A DNA stretch of 11,124 bases, from positions 1-11,124 of the forward strand of contig CATPAS010000217.1 in NCBI GenBank assembly GCA_955652075.1, in the 5' to 3' direction. Shown piece after piece: positions 2,453 to 8,571 of this stretch (its first letter is position 1; each line of letters begins with the position of its first letter). Both the position numbers and the translations under genes were made by a program. This DNA is from an uncultured Gaiellaceae bacterium. GTDB lineage: Bacteria; Actinomycetota; Thermoleophilia; Gaiellales; Gaiellaceae. The notes beneath the pieces are model-generated. The model searched no databases. It was not told where the DNA came from and saw only the letters and a program-made list of their open reading frames with translations.

Positions 2453-3199
2453 ATGACCGCCGCCATTGCAGCCGGAAGGCGCCTGTTCCCACGCGGTTAC
2501 GCGGATTTCGGCCGCCAGCTGCTGATCTGGTTCGGCTTCCTGGCGGCCTATCAGGCGGCACGGGGCGTCGCCGATCGCGATCCCACCCGCGCCTTCGCAA
2601 ACGGCTGGCGCGTGATCGACGTCGAGCAGCGTCTCGCCGGCCTCGGCGAGCTGACGCTGCAGGGCTGGACGCAGTCCTCACACGTCCTCGAGACGCTCGT
2701 TTCGTGGACGTACTGGAATTCCGAGTTCACGGTGGTCGGGATTGCCTTGCTCTGGGTCTATTTCCGGCGCCACGCGGCTTTCACCCGATTCCGCAACACG
2801 ATCCTGCTCGCGAACCTGCTCGGCCTGATCGGCTATGTCTTCCTGCCGACCGCGCCGCCACGCCTCTTCACGTCGATGGGCTTCACAGACACCTTGAGCC
2901 AGTTCGGCGGACTGAATCACGGCAGCGGCCTCATCGAGTTCGCGTCGAACCCGTACGCCGCCATGCCGAGCCTGCACGCAGCCGACGCGCTGATTGCCGG
3001 AATCATCCTTGCGTCGGTCGTCCGTCGTCCGGTTTGGAAGGTGGTCTGGCTGCTCTGGCCGGCGTGGGTCTGGTTCGCCGTGATGGCGACCGGTAACCAC
3101 TTCTGGCTCGACGTCCTCGCCGGCATCGCTGTCGCCTTGATCTCGCTCGCGATCGTGTACCGGGCGCGGTTCAAGAGTGTCATCGCAAGCCTGCTATAG
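2453..3199 (+). CDS. PAP2-superfamily (AUR1-like) membrane phosphatase/phosphotransferase, 248 aa
   Basis: A multi-pass membrane enzyme of the PAP2/AUR1 type; members hydrolyse or transfer lipid-linked phosphate groups through a phospho-histidine. The three PAP2 signature blocks are visible: PTAPPRL at 132-138, PSLH at 172-175 (the PSxH block), and GNHFWLDVLAG at 214-224 with His216 and Asp220. About six hydrophobic segments surround them (roughly 22-36, 90-104, 116-132, 178-191, 196-211, 219-235), which places the active site at the membrane face. The length is normal for the bacterial family. It is followed immediately by the PIP synthase, whose regulatory palindrome starts inside its last codons. 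This context makes dephosphorylation of phosphatidylinositol phosphate, or an inositol-phosphate transfer as in AUR1, an attractive but unproven role. The superfamily is certain; the substrate is inferred. Confidence 0.88.
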   Translation: MTAAIAAGRRLFPRGYADFGRQLLIWFGFLAAYQAARGVADRDPTRAFANGWRVIDVEQRLAGLGELTLQGWTQSSHVLETLVSWTYWNSEFTVVGIALLWVYFRRHAAFTRFRNTILLANLLGLIGYVFLPTAPPRLFTSMGFTDTLSQFGGLNHGSGLIEFASNPYAAMPSLHAADALIAGIILASVVRRPVWKVVWLLWPAWVWFAVMATGNHFWLDVLAGIAVALISLAIVYRARFKSVIASLL

Positions 3200-3226
3200 T
3201 TTTCAACCCATAGCAGGAATGCGATG
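3181..3226 (+). promoter_or_regulatory. Inositol-regulon palindrome, copy 1, with extended -10 box
   Basis: The left arm CATCGCAAGCCTGCTAT (3181-3197) and right arm ATAGCAGGAATGCGATG (3210-3226) are inverted repeats pairing at 15 of 17 positions, separated by 12 nt. The left arm runs into TGCTATAGT (3192-3200), a near-ideal extended -10 promoter, with predicted +1 near 3207. The right arm contains a weak ribosome site (AGGA, 3215-3218) and ends on the ATG at 3224. The left arm also encodes the last residues of the PAP2 protein. A near-identical copy precedes ino1 and no other copy is in the window. It is either an operator covering the promoter or a leader RNA hairpin. No T-run follows, which argues against a terminator. 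Confidence 0.75.
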
Positions 3227-3871
3227 GGCGAGACAATGAGGGACACTGCCGTTCTGCAACGCCTCAAGCAGGGCTACACGACGGGGGCGCGCACGCTGGC
3301 GGCCCGTTCGATCGTGGGTCTCGCACGTACGCGCATCACTCCGAACGCACTCACGACCGCCGGTGTCTCTCTCTGCCTCGCCGCCGCGGTGCTCGTGTAC
3401 TTCGAGGATCACGACAAGCTCCTCTTCTACTGGCTCGGCGCGTTCGTCTTCGTCGTCGGCTCGATCCTCGACATCCTCGACGGCGCACTCGCCCGAGCCG
3501 GAGGCAAGACCACCCCGTTCGGCTCCTTCTTCGACTCGACGACCGACCGGGTCGGCGAAGGCGCGATGCTCGGTGCCATCGCACTGATCTTCTCGCGGCA
3601 CGGCAACGAGGTCGCACTCGGCGCGGCGATCGCCGCCATTGCCGGATCGTTCCTGGTCAGCTACACGCGCGCAAAAGCGGAGGCACTCGGCCTGCGCGGC
3701 GACGTCGGCCTCGGCTCGCGCGCCGAACGGGTCGTCGTCATCACGGCGGGCCTGGTGCTCGCGCCGTGGGGCGCCCTGCCGTGGACGATCTACCTGCTGA
3801 CTGCGACCGCCTGGCTCACGGTCGTGCAGCGGATCCTGTACGTACGCAAACAGCTGATCGAGCGGGAATAA
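3224..3871 (+). CDS. CDP-alcohol phosphatidyltransferase, probable phosphatidylinositol phosphate synthase
   Basis: An integral membrane enzyme that joins CDP-diacylglycerol with an alcohol phosphate, here most likely inositol-1-phosphate, giving phosphatidylinositol phosphate (PIP). The full CDP-alcohol motif D-x2-D-G-x2-A-R-x8-G-x3-D-x3-D is present with Asp83, Asp86, Arg91, Asp104 and Asp108. The later segment SYTRAKAEALGLRGDVGLGSRAER (positions 146-169) closely resembles the mycobacterial PIP synthase (Rv2612c, formerly PgsA1) as remembered (SYIKARAEASGLRGDGG), which favours inositol phosphate over glycerol phosphate. About six membrane helices are seen in 215 aa, normal for the family. 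The ATG at 3224 lies on the edge of the palindrome with AGGA 5 nt upstream; ATG 3236 is an alternative start. The neighbouring ino1 would supply the substrate. Confidence 0.88.
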   Translation: MGETMRDTAVLQRLKQGYTTGARTLAARSIVGLARTRITPNALTTAGVSLCLAAAVLVYFEDHDKLLFYWLGAFVFVVGSILDILDGALARAGGKTTPFGSFFDSTTDRVGEGAMLGAIALIFSRHGNEVALGAAIAAIAGSFLVSYTRAKAEALGLRGDVGLGSRAERVVVITAGLVLAPWGALPWTIYLLTATAWLTVVQRILYVRKQLIERE

Positions 3872-3874
3872 GAT
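3869..3874 (+). promoter_or_regulatory. -10 box (TAAGAT) for leaderless GTG start at 3881
   Basis: TAAGAT overlaps the TAA stop of the PIP synthase and lies exactly 6 nt before the GTG at 3881. A transcript from it would start on the start codon. No Shine-Dalgarno is present in CCTCCT, and no -35 is evident. Co-transcription from the upstream gene remains possible. Confidence 0.45.
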
Positions 3875-3880
3875 CCTCCT

Positions 3881-4156
3881 GTGCTGATCTTCATCCTCGG
3901 CATCATCGTCTGGGGCTTCATCGTGGGCGCCCTGGCCCGGCTCGCGCTTCCCGGCCCGGATCCGATGCCCTGGTACGCGACGATCGGACTCGGCCTTGGC
4001 GGCTCGCTCGTCGGCGGAATCATCGCGAGGGTCCTCCTCGGGACGGCCGGCGGCCTGATCTTTGCCTTCCTGGGCGCGGTGCTCTTGCTCTACCTCTACC
4101 GCCGCTTCGTCCAGGGCCGGGGCATGACGGGCCCCTCGGCCCGCCGGCTCCCCTAG
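3881..4156 (+). CDS. GlsB/YeaQ/YmgE-like small membrane protein, 91 aa
   Basis: A very hydrophobic protein with three predicted membrane spans (about 2-22, 33-51 and 55-72), rich in Gly (GLGLGGSLVGGIIAR) and ending in a basic tail (YRRFVQGRGM onward). The start LGIIVWGFIVGALARLALPG matches the general pattern of the transglycosylase-associated (GlsB/YeaQ/YmgE) family, a stress-linked family whose molecular function is poorly known. It sits 9 bp after the PIP synthase and 65 bp before ino1, embedded in the inositol lipid block, so it may influence the same membrane process, but nothing in the sequence proves that. The GTG start is supported by the TAAGAT box 6 nt upstream. Confidence 0.75.
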   Translation: MLIFILGIIVWGFIVGALARLALPGPDPMPWYATIGLGLGGSLVGGIIARVLLGTAGGLIFAFLGAVLLLYLYRRFVQGRGMTGPSARRLP

Positions 4157-4164
4157 CGGTCTCG

Positions 4165-4208
4165 TATCGCAAACCTGCTATCTTGCCGCGCATAGCAGGA
4201 ATGCGATA
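4165..4208 (+). promoter_or_regulatory. Inositol-regulon palindrome, copy 2, with extended -10 box
   Basis: Left arm TATCGCAAACCTGCTAT (4165-4181), right arm ATAGCAGGAATGCGATA (4192-4208), 10-nt spacer, again 15 of 17 pairs with the same two internal mismatches as copy 1. The right arm shares 16 identical bases with copy 1 (4192-4207 against 3210-3225). The outermost pair changes from C-G in copy 1 to T-A here, so pairing is kept while the base changes. TGCTATCTT (4176-4184) is an extended -10 box, predicting +1 near 4191, at the start of the right arm. The spacer is 2 nt shorter than in copy 1. Confidence 0.75.
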
Positions 4209-4213
4209 GGAGG
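4208..4213 (+). promoter_or_regulatory. Strong Shine-Dalgarno (AGGAGG) of ino1
   Basis: AGGAGG stands 8 nt before the ATG at 4222 and begins on the last base of the palindrome's right arm. It fixes the ino1 start and contrasts with the leaderless-type starts elsewhere in the window. Its position lets any structure or protein on the palindrome affect translation as well. Confidence 0.85.
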
Positions 4214-4221
4214 TCTCCCAC

Positions 4222-5376
4222 ATGTCTCAGAAGAACGGCAACCGGAACGGCAAAACGCGCCTCGATGACCGCGTGCGCGTCGCCCTGATAGGCGTGGGCA
4301 ACTGCGCCAACTCGCTGCTGCAGGGAGTGGAGTACTACAAGGACGCGCCGGACGACCAGTTCGTCCCCGGACTGATGCACGTCAATCTCGGCGGCTACCA
4401 CGTCCGCGATATCGAGTTCACGGCTGCTTTCGACGTCACGACCGGCAAGGTCGGCGAGGATCTGTCCGAAGCGATCTGGGCGCACCCGAACGACACGATC
4501 AAATTTGCGGACGTGCCGAAGACCGGGATCAAGGTCTCCCGCGGCATGACGCACGACGGGCTCGGCAAGTACATCTCGGAGGTGGTAACCAAGGCGCCCG
4601 GCGAGACCGACGACGTCGTCGGGATCCTGCGCGACACCCAGACGGACGTCGTCGTCAACTACCTGCCCGTCGGCTCCGACGCCGCGACCAAGTGGTACGC
4701 GGAGCAGGTGCTGGAAGCGGGCTGCGCGATGGTGAACTGCATGCCGGTCTTCATCGCCCGTGAGGCCTACTGGCAGCGGCGCTTTGAGGAGAAAGGCCTG
4801 CCGATCATCGGCGACGACATCAAGTCTCAGGTCGGCGCGACGATCACGCACCGCGTACTCACCTCGCTCTTCCGCGAGCGCGGCGTCCGGCTCGACAAGA
4901 CGATGCAGCTGAACGTTGGCGGGAACTCCGACTTCCTCAACATGCTCGAGCGTGAGCGGCTCGAGTCGAAGAAGATCTCGAAGACGAACGCCGTCACGTC
5001 GATGCTCGACTACGACCTGGGCGCGAAGAACGTTCACGTCGGCCCGTCCGACTACGTGCCGTGGCTGACCGACCGCAAGTGGGCGTACATCCGCATGGAG
5101 GGCTCGTCCTTCGGCGACGTGCCCCTCAACCTGGAGCTCAAGCTCGAGGTCTGGGACTCGCCGAACTCGGCCGGCATCGTGATCGACGCGGTGCGGCTCG
5201 CGAAGCTGGCGCTGAACAACGGCGTCGCGGGCGCCCTCGAGGGCCCGAGCTCCTACCTGATGAAGTCGCCGCCGAAGCAGGTGCCCGACGACGAGGCCTA
5301 CGACGCGGCGGAGAAGTTCATCCGGGACAACGCGCGCACCGTCTCACAGATCGCGGCAGACGCGACCGCAGGCTGA
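4222..5376 (+). CDS. ino1: Inositol-3-phosphate synthase (myo-inositol-1-phosphate synthase)
   Basis: A cytosolic NAD-dependent enzyme that converts D-glucose-6-phosphate to 1D-myo-inositol-3-phosphate, the committed step of inositol synthesis. At 384 aa it has the size of the short prokaryotic form. The visible family blocks are the Rossmann motif [13 protein letters not shown] (20-32), [15 protein letters not shown] (197-211), [11 protein letters not shown] (231-241), [19 protein letters not shown] (276-294), and [15 protein letters not shown] (304-318). The start is set by a strong AGGAGG 8 nt upstream. Transcription probably starts inside the palindrome shared with the PIP synthase gene, so the supplier of inositol phosphate and its user appear to be controlled together. 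The PIP synthase, a PAP2 enzyme and a PimA-like protein are close by. Confidence 0.97.
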
Positions 5377-5514: not shown

Positions 5515-7248
5515 ATGGGCCTTCGAATCTGCCTCGTTACCCCGTTTGCGTGGTCTCAGCCGCACGACGTCAACGAGCACGTGGCGGGCGTTGCGAAGGA
5601 GCTGCGCAAGCTCGGCCATTCAGTTATCGTCCTCGCCTCGTCGAACCGGGCCCGTGACCTCGCGGCCGGGCGGCGGGCGCTGCTCGACGGCCTCGACGAG
5701 GAAGTGATCGCGCTCGGCCCGGCCGTTCCGATCTCGCGCCGCAGCCGGATCGGGGTGCCGGTCGGCGCGCGCGCGAACCTGTCGCTCGCACTCGTGCTCG
5801 GGCGGTTCGACATCGTCCATGGCTTCGAGCCCGGGCTTCCCTCACTTTCCTATCTGGCCTTGCGCGACGCACAAGCAATGACAGTTGCGACATTCCTGAA
5901 TGCCGAGCGGCTCGGCTATCCGCCCGGGCGCGCACAGCGCGACCGCCTGCTCGGGCGCATCGACGCGCTCGTCGCTACCAGTGAGGAGACGGCCGAGGCG
6001 GCCGCCAGCCGCTTCCCGGGTCACTACCGCGTCGTCAGCGAGGGCATCGACCCCGAGCTCTTCCGGCCCGCCAACAAGCGCAGCCTGACCGTGCTCGAGT
6101 GGCGCCCGAACGAGCGTGCGCTTCTCCGCGGCGTGTTTCGCGCGCTCGAGGAGCTGCCGGAGTGGGAGCTCGTCCTGCTGCGCACGAAGCCCCTGGCCGG
6201 CCGACCGACGATCCCGCGCCTCCTACGTGATCGAGTGCATGTGCGAACCGCGCGAGACGGTTCTGCGAGAGCACCGCTGCTCGCGGAGGCGAGCATCTTC
6301 GTCCCGGCGCTCGCCGGGCTCGAGCGCGTGCGGCTCGAAGCATCGGCGTCGGGGTGCGCGGTCGCGTCGCCGCCGGGGACGCGCGAGCAGCCCGAGCTCG
6401 CCGGTGCCGAGGTTGCACGGCTCGCCGAGGACACGGAGTTCCGCGCGCGCAAGGCCGAGCGGGCGCGTGCCGATGTAGAGGGACAGAGCTTCGCCGACGT
6501 GGCGCGCCAGCTCGACGAGCTCTATCGCTCCCTCTCGGAGCGTCGTCAGGCGCCACACCAGCAAGGTGATCCGTTCGCGGACCGCCCCTGGGTTCTCTGC
6601 GACCTGCACATGCACACGAGCTGGTCGCACGACTGTGCCGTCGATCCGGCCGATCTGATCATGCACGGCGAGGCGATCGGGCTCGGCGCGATCGCCGTCA
6701 CGGACCACAACGTGTTCGGCGGGGCCCTCGAGACGAGTGAGCTCGCACGCGACCATGACCTGGTCGTCATCCCCGGCGAGGAGGTGAAGACCGACGGACA
6801 GGGAGAGGTGATCGGTCTGTTCCTCCGCGAGGAGATCCCGGGCGGCAGGTCCTTCGCCGACACGGTGGCGGCCATCAAGGAGCAGGGCGGCCTCGTCTAT
6901 CTTCCGCATCCCTTCGACCGGATGCATTCGATCGCCGACCCAACGACGCTCCAGCGTCATCTGGCGGACATCGACATCTTCGAGGTCTATAACGCGCGTC
7001 TCCTCTTCGACGCCTACAACGACGAGGCACTGCGGTTCGCGCGCAAGTACAACCTGACGATGGGAGCGGGCTCGGACGCGCACGTGCTCCAGGGAGTCGG
7101 GACGGGCGCGGTCCGAATGCGGGCCTTCGAGGGCCCGGAGGAGTTCCTGCTCAGCCTCCGCTCGGCCCAGGTCCTGCGGCGGCCCAAGTCGCTCGTGTAC
7201 CTCCAGTCCCTCAAATGGATGGCCCAGGCCAAGGAACGGGTTCGATAG
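5515..7248 (+). CDS. Glycosyltransferase family 4 (PimA-like) domain fused to a PHP phosphoesterase domain, 577 aa
   Basis: Two-domain cytosolic protein. Residues 1 to about 345 look like a GT-B glycosyltransferase related to phosphatidylinositol mannosyltransferase PimA: an N-terminal LRICLVTPFAW, then EHVAGVAKELRKLGHSVIVLA (21-41), FDIVHGFEPGLPSLSYLAL (98-116), VATF (124-127), VSEGIDPELFRP (174-185) and LEASASGCAVASPPG (274-288). Residues 358-577 form a PHP metal-dependent phosphoesterase domain with DLHMHTSWSHD (His365, His367), VTDHN (Asp397, His398), PGEEV (Glu422, Glu423), His465, Glu490 and SDAH (Asp521, His523), a complete metal-ligand set. In contrast, the GT half lacks the His after ATF (Leu128 here) and the usual Arg/Lys sugar-phosphate residues, so it may be inactive as a transferase. 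Its place just after ino1 suggests a role with inositol lipids. Domain identity is firm; the reaction is unknown. Confidence 0.85.
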   Translation: MGLRICLVTPFAWSQPHDVNEHVAGVAKELRKLGHSVIVLASSNRARDLAAGRRALLDGLDEEVIALGPAVPISRRSRIGVPVGARANLSLALVLGRFDIVHGFEPGLPSLSYLALRDAQAMTVATFLNAERLGYPPGRAQRDRLLGRIDALVATSEETAEAAASRFPGHYRVVSEGIDPELFRPANKRSLTVLEWRPNERALLRGVFRALEELPEWELVLLRTKPLAGRPTIPRLLRDRVHVRTARDGSARAPLLAEASIFVPALAGLERVRLEASASGCAVASPPGTREQPELAGAEVARLAEDTEFRARKAERARADVEGQSFADVARQLDELYRSLSERRQAPHQQGDPFADRPWVLCDLHMHTSWSHDCAVDPADLIMHGEAIGLGAIAVTDHNVFGGALETSELARDHDLVVIPGEEVKTDGQGEVIGLFLREEIPGGRSFADTVAAIKEQGGLVYLPHPFDRMHSIADPTTLQRHLADIDIFEVYNARLLFDAYNDEALRFARKYNLTMGAGSDAHVLQGVGTGAVRMRAFEGPEEFLLSLRSAQVLRRPKSLVYLQSLKWMAQAKERVR

Positions 7249-7267: not shown

Positions 7268-7849
7268 GTGCCGGCGACCGACGAGATCTACGAGAAGTAC
7301 CTCCAGAAGGCGATCGTGGAGATCAACGACCTGGCCCACGAGGTGGCCCAGGCCGGCGGCGGCACCCGCGTGCCCATCGTGGGATCCGGCCATCCACTCG
7401 CCGACGTGATGCTGCTCAAATTCAGGCCGCAGCCGGCGGAGGTGCAGGAGGGCGTCGCCTTCTACGGCCGCGCCGGCCAGGCGATCCTGAAGTCGCTTCA
7501 GCGGCTCCACGTCGATCCGATGTCCGTGTACGGGACGAACTGCATCAAGTTCACGGACGGCGACGAGGACGAGTCGCGGCCGTTCCTCACGCGCGAGCTG
7601 CACATCGTGCAGCCAAAGCTCATCGTGGCGATGGGAGAGAACGTTGTCGAGTTCCTCAACTCGATCGCCTTCCCGCTGGCCGATACCGTGGAGTACAAGC
7701 CGGGCGAGCTCCAGCGATACACCGCAACGGTCCAGGTATTGGTTGTCCCCGACATCGACGCGTCGCTCGACGAGGCACCGGCGAAGACTCAGTTTTGGAA
7801 CGCTTTCAAGCCACTCGGCCAATGGTGGGCCGAGCTGCCGCCTTACTAG
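7268..7849 (+). CDS. Divergent uracil-DNA glycosylase superfamily protein, 193 aa
   Basis: It resembles UDG families 4/5. PIVGSGHPLADVMLLKF (36-52) aligns with the VGEAPG block, FYGRAGQAILKSL (65-77) with the FVGRAGQLL block, VYGTNCIKFTDGDE (87-100) with the YITNVVKC block, and RPFLTRELHIVQPKLIVAMG (104-123) with the PKVIVALG block. True family members excise uracil from DNA. Here the signature GEAPG is changed to GSGHP, the HPS catalytic motif near the C-terminus is replaced by PDIDASL (161-167), and only one Cys (92) is present, so the usual four-Cys iron-sulphur cluster cannot form. The fold is likely kept but classic activity is doubtful. The GTG start is 19 bp after the GT-PHP gene. The 3' end overlaps the next gene by 28 bp, suggesting translational coupling. 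Confidence 0.75.
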   Translation: MPATDEIYEKYLQKAIVEINDLAHEVAQAGGGTRVPIVGSGHPLADVMLLKFRPQPAEVQEGVAFYGRAGQAILKSLQRLHVDPMSVYGTNCIKFTDGDEDESRPFLTRELHIVQPKLIVAMGENVVEFLNSIAFPLADTVEYKPGELQRYTATVQVLVVPDIDASLDEAPAKTQFWNAFKPLGQWWAELPPY

Positions 7850-8571
7850 CTCTCGGGACGGCGCTCGGCCTCTACTACCCGTTCCACGACAGGCTGTGGA
7901 AGGCATCGACGTGGTGGGACATCGCGTTCATCGCGCTGGTCCTGATTCCCGCCTGCTTCGCGCTCGTGTGGCTCGTGCTGCCCTTGCACACCGCGCCCGG
8001 GCTGCTGGTGGCGGGCTTCGCGTTCGGCGCGCTCGCGTTCCTGTGCCACTTCGCGGGCTGGAACACGCCGGAGAACTTCTGCAAGCTCTTCGGCGTCACG
8101 GCCGTCGGCTTCTGGTTCCTGCGGTACTTCGAGACGTTGAATTGGGTGGTGCTCGTCGCCCTGATCATTCCCTGGGTCGACGCTTACTCCGTGTGGCGCG
8201 GACCGACGAAGGTGATCGTCAACCAGCACCGGGAGGTCTTCACGAACTTCTCGTTCTCCTTCGCGATTCCGGGCAAGACGTCGGCCGCGAACCTCGGCCT
8301 GCCCGATCTCCTGTTCTTCGCCCTCTTCCTCGCGGCCTCGGTCCGGTGGGAGTTGCGTCCAAGGTTGACGTGGTTGCTGCTGACGCTCTCGTTCGGCGCC
8401 ACGCTCGCGCTCGCGGTCTGGGGTCGGCTCGGCGGGCTACCCGCCCTGCCGCTCCTCGCGCTCGGGTTCCTGCTCGCGAACGGCGACCTGATCTGGACGC
8501 GCTTCAGGCGGGAGCGGGCAGAACGCTCCGAGGAAATCGGAACACATTCTTCTGGTCGTAGCGAGCCTTAG
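7822..8571 (+). CDS. Presenilin/SPP-like putative intramembrane aspartyl protease, 249 aa
   Basis: A multi-pass membrane protein with about eight hydrophobic segments. Its last four carry the hallmarks of presenilin/signal peptide peptidase enzymes in the correct order: Asp120 in a helix (IIPWVDAYSVWRGPTK), then after a 40-residue polar loop the LGLPD motif (Asp162) at the start of the next helix, one plain helix (about 183-200), and a final helix containing LPALP (PALP 207-210). In presenilins the equivalents are YD, GxGD and PALP in helices 6, 7 and 9. The enzymes cleave membrane helices of their substrates. Differences are Val instead of Tyr before the first Asp and GLPD instead of GLGD. 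The ATG at 7822 was chosen because the preceding nine codons of the open frame (from TTG 7795) add no visible family sequence; it overlaps the UDG-like gene by 28 bp. The 3' end overlaps the convergent oxidase gene by 68 bp. The family assignment is by motif only. Confidence 0.6.
   Translation: MVGRAAALLALGTALGLYYPFHDRLWKASTWWDIAFIALVLIPACFALVWLVLPLHTAPGLLVAGFAFGALAFLCHFAGWNTPENFCKLFGVTAVGFWFLRYFETLNWVVLVALIIPWVDAYSVWRGPTKVIVNQHREVFTNFSFSFAIPGKTSAANLGLPDLLFFALFLAASVRWELRPRLTWLLLTLSFGATLALAVWGRLGGLPALPLLALGFLLANGDLIWTRFRRERAERSEEIGTHSSGRSEP

Follow-up and report, generated by a model that had tools for sequence, protein, structure and literature searches.

An open reading frame (ORF) for 249 residues in the DNA of an uncultured Gaiellaceae bacterium (Actinomycetota, Thermoleophilia) probably encodes a bacterial intramembrane aspartyl protease with presenilin fold, belonging to a variant type that lacks the GxGD motif. 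It lies on contig CATPAS010000217.1 of assembly GCA_955652075.1, which was analysed as a whole (11,124 nucleotides, called the window below) and whose source genome is 72% complete; ATG 7822 is the putative start codon, the choice of which is unproven. The computed part of this reading consists of homology to presenilins in sequence and predicted fold, of invariant catalytic residues, and of a compact chain for which eight transmembrane (TM) helices and a tight hairpin are predicted; proteolysis itself is what we infer. Presenilin is a protein-cutting enzyme linked to Alzheimer's disease. Among membrane diaspartyl proteases, the prepilin peptidases are the only ones usually ascribed to bacteria.

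Homology to presenilins in sequence and predicted fold

The analysis is based on an alignment of 74 sequences, i.e. the window protein and 73 relatives with identities down to 25%. It was drawn from 79 distinct members, 75 of which have at least 180 residues; the four shorter ones and an insert-bearing member (L068) were left out, and the window's own copy was swapped for the full ORF. When the profile was compared with 177,635 distinct PDB sequences, all four matches at E ≤ 10 were human presenilins (PS2, E 1.5e-5; PS1, 6.4e-5, 6.6e-5 and 1.9e-4), and the absence of other polytopic membrane proteins among them serves as a natural control. The significant stretch places LGLpDllFfALF on LGLGDFIFYSVL and PALP on PALP. 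In three of the four matches a second stretch, vDaySVf..rGPT, is placed on YDLVAVLcpKGPL. The likeness to PS1 after the first Asp, which the first-pass annotation had proposed, is thereby recovered from the real chains ('vDaySVf..rGPTkaivee' with 'YDLVAVLcpKGPLRMLVE'), this stretch alone being not significant (i-Evalue 44-130).

The same annotation had named three Pfam families, only one of which gave a signal. The presenilin family PF01080 was matched weakly, by 13 of the 74 members at E ≤ 1 (best 1.4e-6), and the scores given for individual members, at most 21.1 bits, are all below the cut-off of 34.3; PF04258 and PF06550 matched no member in the Pfam scan at E ≤ 1. PF06550, under which archaeal PSH is presumably filed, also found nothing at E ≤ 10 in seven genomes carrying the presenilin-like family, and was rejected as a candidate for the phylum (0 of 198 genomes at E ≤ 0.001); two archaeal controls passed the cut-off in both searches. 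At E ≤ 1 neither the window protein nor any of its 73 aligned relatives matched an A24 model of Pfam.

Eight residues are invariant in all 74 sequences (D120, S123, V124, G127, G159, D162, F165 and P210), and at least 90% conservation is found for A113, P128, T129, G151, F169, L178, R179, T183, T194, P207, A208, L209, F216, N220 and D222. Asp120, LGLPD with Asp162, a lone helix (residues 180-200) and LPALP (206-210) all lie where the first-pass annotation had placed them, as seen in the ORF, the alignment and the model, and its proposed conservation check came out in its favour, with both Asp kept in all 74 sequences and PALP nearly throughout. Judged from the sequences, the Asp/GLPD/PALP pattern exceeds chance, given the invariant and highly conserved residues across the alignment.

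The predicted fold of the window protein, according to the model and structure searches, is the presenilin fold; together with the PDB matches, which are exclusively presenilins, this upholds the presenilin-like identity proposed from the first inspection. In the model both Asp are located in adjacent TM helices (D120 in 106-126, D162 in 160-175). Eight helices of TM length are predicted in a compact chain, and the long presenilin loop is replaced by a tight hairpin. Human presenilin and SPP members have nine TM helices, as given in excerpts of PMC7768045, a feature of the superfamily that this model does not show. FlaK and prepilin peptidases are absent among the fold matches listed, which excludes nothing.

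The family is widespread. Of 399 genomes of the class, 153 yielded relatives in a single-sequence search and 166 with the profile, so that the initial view of known bacterial members as few has to be given up. In the phylum as a whole there were matches in 30 of 396 genomes, of which 19 belong to the class and 11 to a single outside family (f23). The relatives with record titles come from actinobacterial metagenome assemblies, several labelled Thermoleophilia, Gaiella or Gaiellaceae.

Table 1. Features of the protease-like ORF and its upstream neighbour in the window.
Feature	Position	Strand	Basis
Presenilin-fold diaspartyl membrane protein, 249 residues, ATG start, TAG stop (8569-8571)	7822..8571	+	ORF, alignment, PDB profile search, predicted fold
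TM helix, residues 106-126, with Asp120 within VDxxSVxxGPT; equivalent of presenilin TM6	8137..8199	+	Weak profile alignment, model helix, invariance
β-hairpin, strands 144-148 and 155-159, directly before the second Asp	8251..8298	+	Model
G159-L-P-D162, GxGD equivalent, second Gly replaced by Pro	8296..8307	+	Alignment
P207-A-L-P210, PAL(P) motif, start of last helix	8440..8451	+	Alignment, PDB profile search
N220-x-D222, conserved polar pair, last helix	8479..8487	+	N in 71/74, D in 69/74
Gene with uracil-DNA glycosylase fold, 193 residues, overlapping the protease ORF by 28 nucleotides	7268..7849	+	Upstream, same strand

Motif departures, catalysis and membrane orientation

The motifs of the superfamily are YD at the first Asp, GxGD at the second and PAL at the last helix (PMC7768045, in part). 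Among the 74 sequences the residue before D120 is V (62), I (7), A (4) or T (1), never Y; in the GxGD equivalent the first Gly is always kept and the third position is P (55), S (13), A (3), T (2) or V (1), never G; and the PAL motif is kept (P 72, A 73, L 72, followed by P in all 74). As the defining GxGD motif was tested and is not present, we do not assign the family to the GxGD proteases proper and regard it as a sister family with presenilin fold; its membership is strong by fold and catalytic residues and, as far as the aligned residues tell, fails by the named motif. For the archaeal prepilin peptidase PibD, in vivo activity assays led to a redefinition of the motif as GxHyD, according to an excerpt of PMC4343526; in the wider group the third motif position is thus open to variation.

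In the mechanism that we propose, Asp120 and Asp162 on neighbouring membrane helices would constitute the catalytic pair, and PALP at the base of the last helix, together with the short β-hairpin before Asp162, may keep the unwound substrate in place as an additional strand. The hairpin (144-148/155-159) sits at the position of presenilin β1/β2, as compared with the accessible part of PMC10290658. The balance of Lys and Arg in the loops, whose sides were taken as alternating from the model, argues for both termini lying inside in 73 of the 74 members, with one against (means 7.4 and 3.2); with short loops only, 73 favour this arrangement, one is a tie and none is against. With the termini inside, the Asp-Asp loop is outside, which is the orientation of SPP; thus an SPP-like orientation with cytoplasmic termini is predicted. 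Presenilins are orientated oppositely to SPPs, which cleave type II proteins (PMC7768045, excerpt). From the SPP-like orientation it would follow that the substrates are N-in/C-out, e.g. cleaved signal peptides or type II membrane proteins.

Several observations weigh against a presenilin-fold protease. Among 102 distinct sequences, 100 have a residue before D162, one decayed member included, and in none of them is it the second Gly of GxGD (P 61, S 26, A 7, T 5, V 1). In γ-secretase the glycine is called critical, as larger residues at G382/G384 leave virtually no activity, an effect ascribed to a blocked water path (PMC10290658, in part), and an Ala mutant slows the archaeal MCMJR1 (excerpt of PMC2947513). 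The window protein alone matches no A22 model in Pfam or NCBIfam at E ≤ 1. The structural agreement, as far as the model goes, is of middling precision, with Foldseek TM-scores of 0.26-0.51 at a root-mean-square deviation (rmsd) of 14-20 Å (ranks 1-17) and VIA-align rmsd values of 5.7-7.8 Å to presenilins, 3.9 Å to PSH and 3.1-3.4 Å to SPPL2a. Moreover, the model of an insert-bearing member has no fold match at E ≤ 0.001; its two top matches are to Munc13-1 (E 0.025-0.029), followed by γ-secretase (E 0.057).

The most serious rival, although in our view an unlikely one, is a presenilin-fold pseudoprotease, in which the Asp pair would serve structure or ion/proton chemistry, loss of the GxGD glycine would stop water access and TM segments would be bound uncut, comparable to iRhoms, which among the rhomboids bind TM segments without cutting them. 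The replacement of the Gly by Pro, Ser, Ala, Thr or Val in every member speaks for it, as does the loss of activity reported for larger residues at PS1 G384 (PMC10290658, in part); however, invariance of both Asp in 74 of 74 sequences is unusual in a dead enzyme, the sole examined member without both is a shortened copy (L126/L157), and the motif of the related PibD was redefined from in vivo activity (PMC4343526, excerpt). Between the variant protease and the catalytically altered relative that had been left as options at the outset, residue conservation thus appears to be favouring the former.

An active protease might instead have the presenilin orientation, with the Asp-Asp loop inside, and take part in regulated intramembrane proteolysis by cutting type I proteins and freeing their cytoplasmic fragments. 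In sequence the protein is indeed closer to presenilins than to either SPP or PSH, the PDB matches being presenilins only and PF01080, not PF04258 or PF06550, being matched, but the positive-inside balance opposes this in 73 of 74 members and the β-rich insert described below lies in the Asp-Asp loop, which renders this arrangement very unlikely. Finally, a convergent polytopic membrane protein, a transporter or other, with GLPD and PALP by chance could draw on DUF4267, the strongest direct Pfam match of the window protein (E 2.8e-4, below cut-off), which 28 of the 74 members also match at E ≤ 1, but in the window protein the match spans only residues 90-129, and convergence, already made unlikely by the PDB profile search and the fold matches, retains hardly any probability when alignment, profile search, model and fold matches are taken jointly. 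The only other Pfam match of the window protein was YwiC (E 0.12); NCBIfam gave nothing for it, and its single-sequence PDB search gave one unrelated match (E 0.37).

Eight members (L068, L168, L167 and L169-L173; six of genus g12, the others with g14) carry an insert of about 100 residues within the hairpin, exactly between the two Asp-Asp strands. A Cys pair is present within the insert in six of these members, and the model of the insert is β-rich with low to moderate confidence. Fibronectin-III and C2-domain entries recur, with γ-secretase, as weak matches of the insert-bearing model (E about 0.06-0.6), and PF00041 is touched by one member (E 0.11); the insert is perhaps fibronectin-III-like.

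A role in signal-peptide clearance in place of SppA was considered and rejected. Peptidase_S49 is above cut-off in 8 of 94 genomes of the class (12 match at E ≤ 0.001), and seven of these eight also carry the presenilin-like gene, 48 genomes having only the presenilin-like gene and 38 neither; this co-occurrence indicates no complementarity. The Site-2 protease M50 is found in 93 of the 94. A mobile origin was likewise rejected: the window protein has no plasmid match, and none of 101 candidate stretches in viral contigs is a relative.

The neighbouring gene with uracil-DNA glycosylase fold

The gene directly upstream encodes a protein with uracil-DNA glycosylase (UDG) fold. Of the 101 distinct members of the family, 97 come with 400 or more upstream nucleotides, and 96 of these 97 have a UDG-like gene there on the same strand, the exception (L117) belonging to f23. 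The distance between the UDG-like stop and the beginning of the protease match ranges from -19 to 352 nucleotides, except in one locus (L079) with 749. In the f23 loci (L114-L121, L123-L125) the UDG-like partner is strongly diverged, with a short partial match of 49-64 bits. Pairwise identities of one protein are correlated with those of the other (Spearman 0.82; 3,655 non-independent pairs from 86 loci, excluding partial matches), as expected under vertical co-inheritance. The remaining neighbours are more variable: across 65 loci glycosyltransferase-PHP, INO1 and TrmA-like genes are frequent, not constant.

The UDG-like proteins resemble family 4 uracil-DNA glycosylases (PDB E 2e-15), whose cluster ligand places and active-site motif we take to be four Cys and GExPG, respectively. 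The GExPG stretch is replaced in all 28 aligned UDG-like proteins, in which K51 is invariant, and 15 of the 28 keep the four Cys; the window copy has no Cys at these places, its single Cys being elsewhere. The class-wide protein is probably no longer an ordinary uracil glycosylase.

The UDG-like gene is present in 364 of 399 genomes of the class (E ≤ 1e-25), compared with 166 for the presenilin-like gene; it therefore needs no protease, an obligate pair is rejected, and a partnership is to be treated as hypothesis. Of 20 UDG loci from genomes without protease match (L137-L156), 19 lack a presenilin-like match (E < 0.5) and one (L145) holds a weak relict; two further UDG loci (L165, L166) gave no presenilin-like match. 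Still, some functional tie between the two proteins may exist. Taken to its furthest extent, the proposal would be that of bacterial presenilins that cut without the GxGD glycine, are SPP-oriented, carry a preformed substrate-binding β-sheet in a minimal chain and work with a cytoplasmic UDG-fold partner without glycosylase chemistry, i.e. a two-gene system, common to two actinobacterial classes, that would couple proteolysis in the membrane to a protein binding nucleic acids; in this entirety it is rather unlikely, albeit with an appreciable chance.

Some copies are decayed. In genus g78 one genome has a 159-residue relative after the UDG-like gene that lacks both catalytic Asp (L126/L157), another retains only two weak stretches there (L145), and a weak or shortened copy (L164) is seen as profile match only. 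This small sample suggests that loss of the catalytic residues goes with loss of the gene. In L062 and L074/L174 the match stops or shifts frame near or before the PALP region, which could reflect sequencing errors or pseudogenes.

Elsewhere in the window, genes for PAP2, CDP-alcohol phosphatidyltransferase and inositol-phosphate synthase cluster at 2453-5376 (Pfam above cut-off, NCBIfam below cut-offs), which suggests inositol phospholipid synthesis. At 5515-7248 a glycosyltransferase-4-like domain is fused to a PHP phosphoesterase domain, a common upstream neighbour across the class.

Comparison with known systems

Among the literature matches listed, none describes a bacterial presenilin of this type, nor does any join presenilin with Thermoleophilia or with uracil-DNA glycosylase and Actinobacteria, in a coverage that leaves out most subscription journals. 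A compact bacterial relative would be an easily handled enzyme, would test whether the GxGD glycine is needed for water access, and would separate presenilin-like sequence from presenilin orientation. Additionally, it would bear on the age of the presenilin/SPP fold and its β-sheet exosite, and its nearly fixed UDG-fold neighbour is a concrete candidate partner.

With presenilin (MEROPS A22A, PF01080; PS1/PS2 of γ-secretase), the sole family matched by the profile in the PDB, the family has in common the fold, the two Asp, PALP, GP(L/T) after the first Asp and β-strands before the second; it differs in having GxPD, GxSD and similar for GxGD, VD for YD and eight predicted TM helices, in lacking, in most members, the long loop between the strands, and in its probably opposite orientation. 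From SPP/SPPL (A22B, PF04258) it is set apart by the absence of any PF04258 match (74 members, E ≤ 1), of GxGD and of YD, and again by eight predicted TM helices, and from archaeal PSH/MCMJR1 by PF06550, which finds nothing in seven genomes with this family (E ≤ 10) or in 198 of the phylum (E ≤ 0.001). The type IV prepilin and preflagellin peptidases (A24, FlaK, PibD) are diaspartyl membrane proteases, too, and in PibD the third motif position varies (PMC4343526, excerpt), but the family described here has the PALP motif and no A24 match in Pfam at E ≤ 1.
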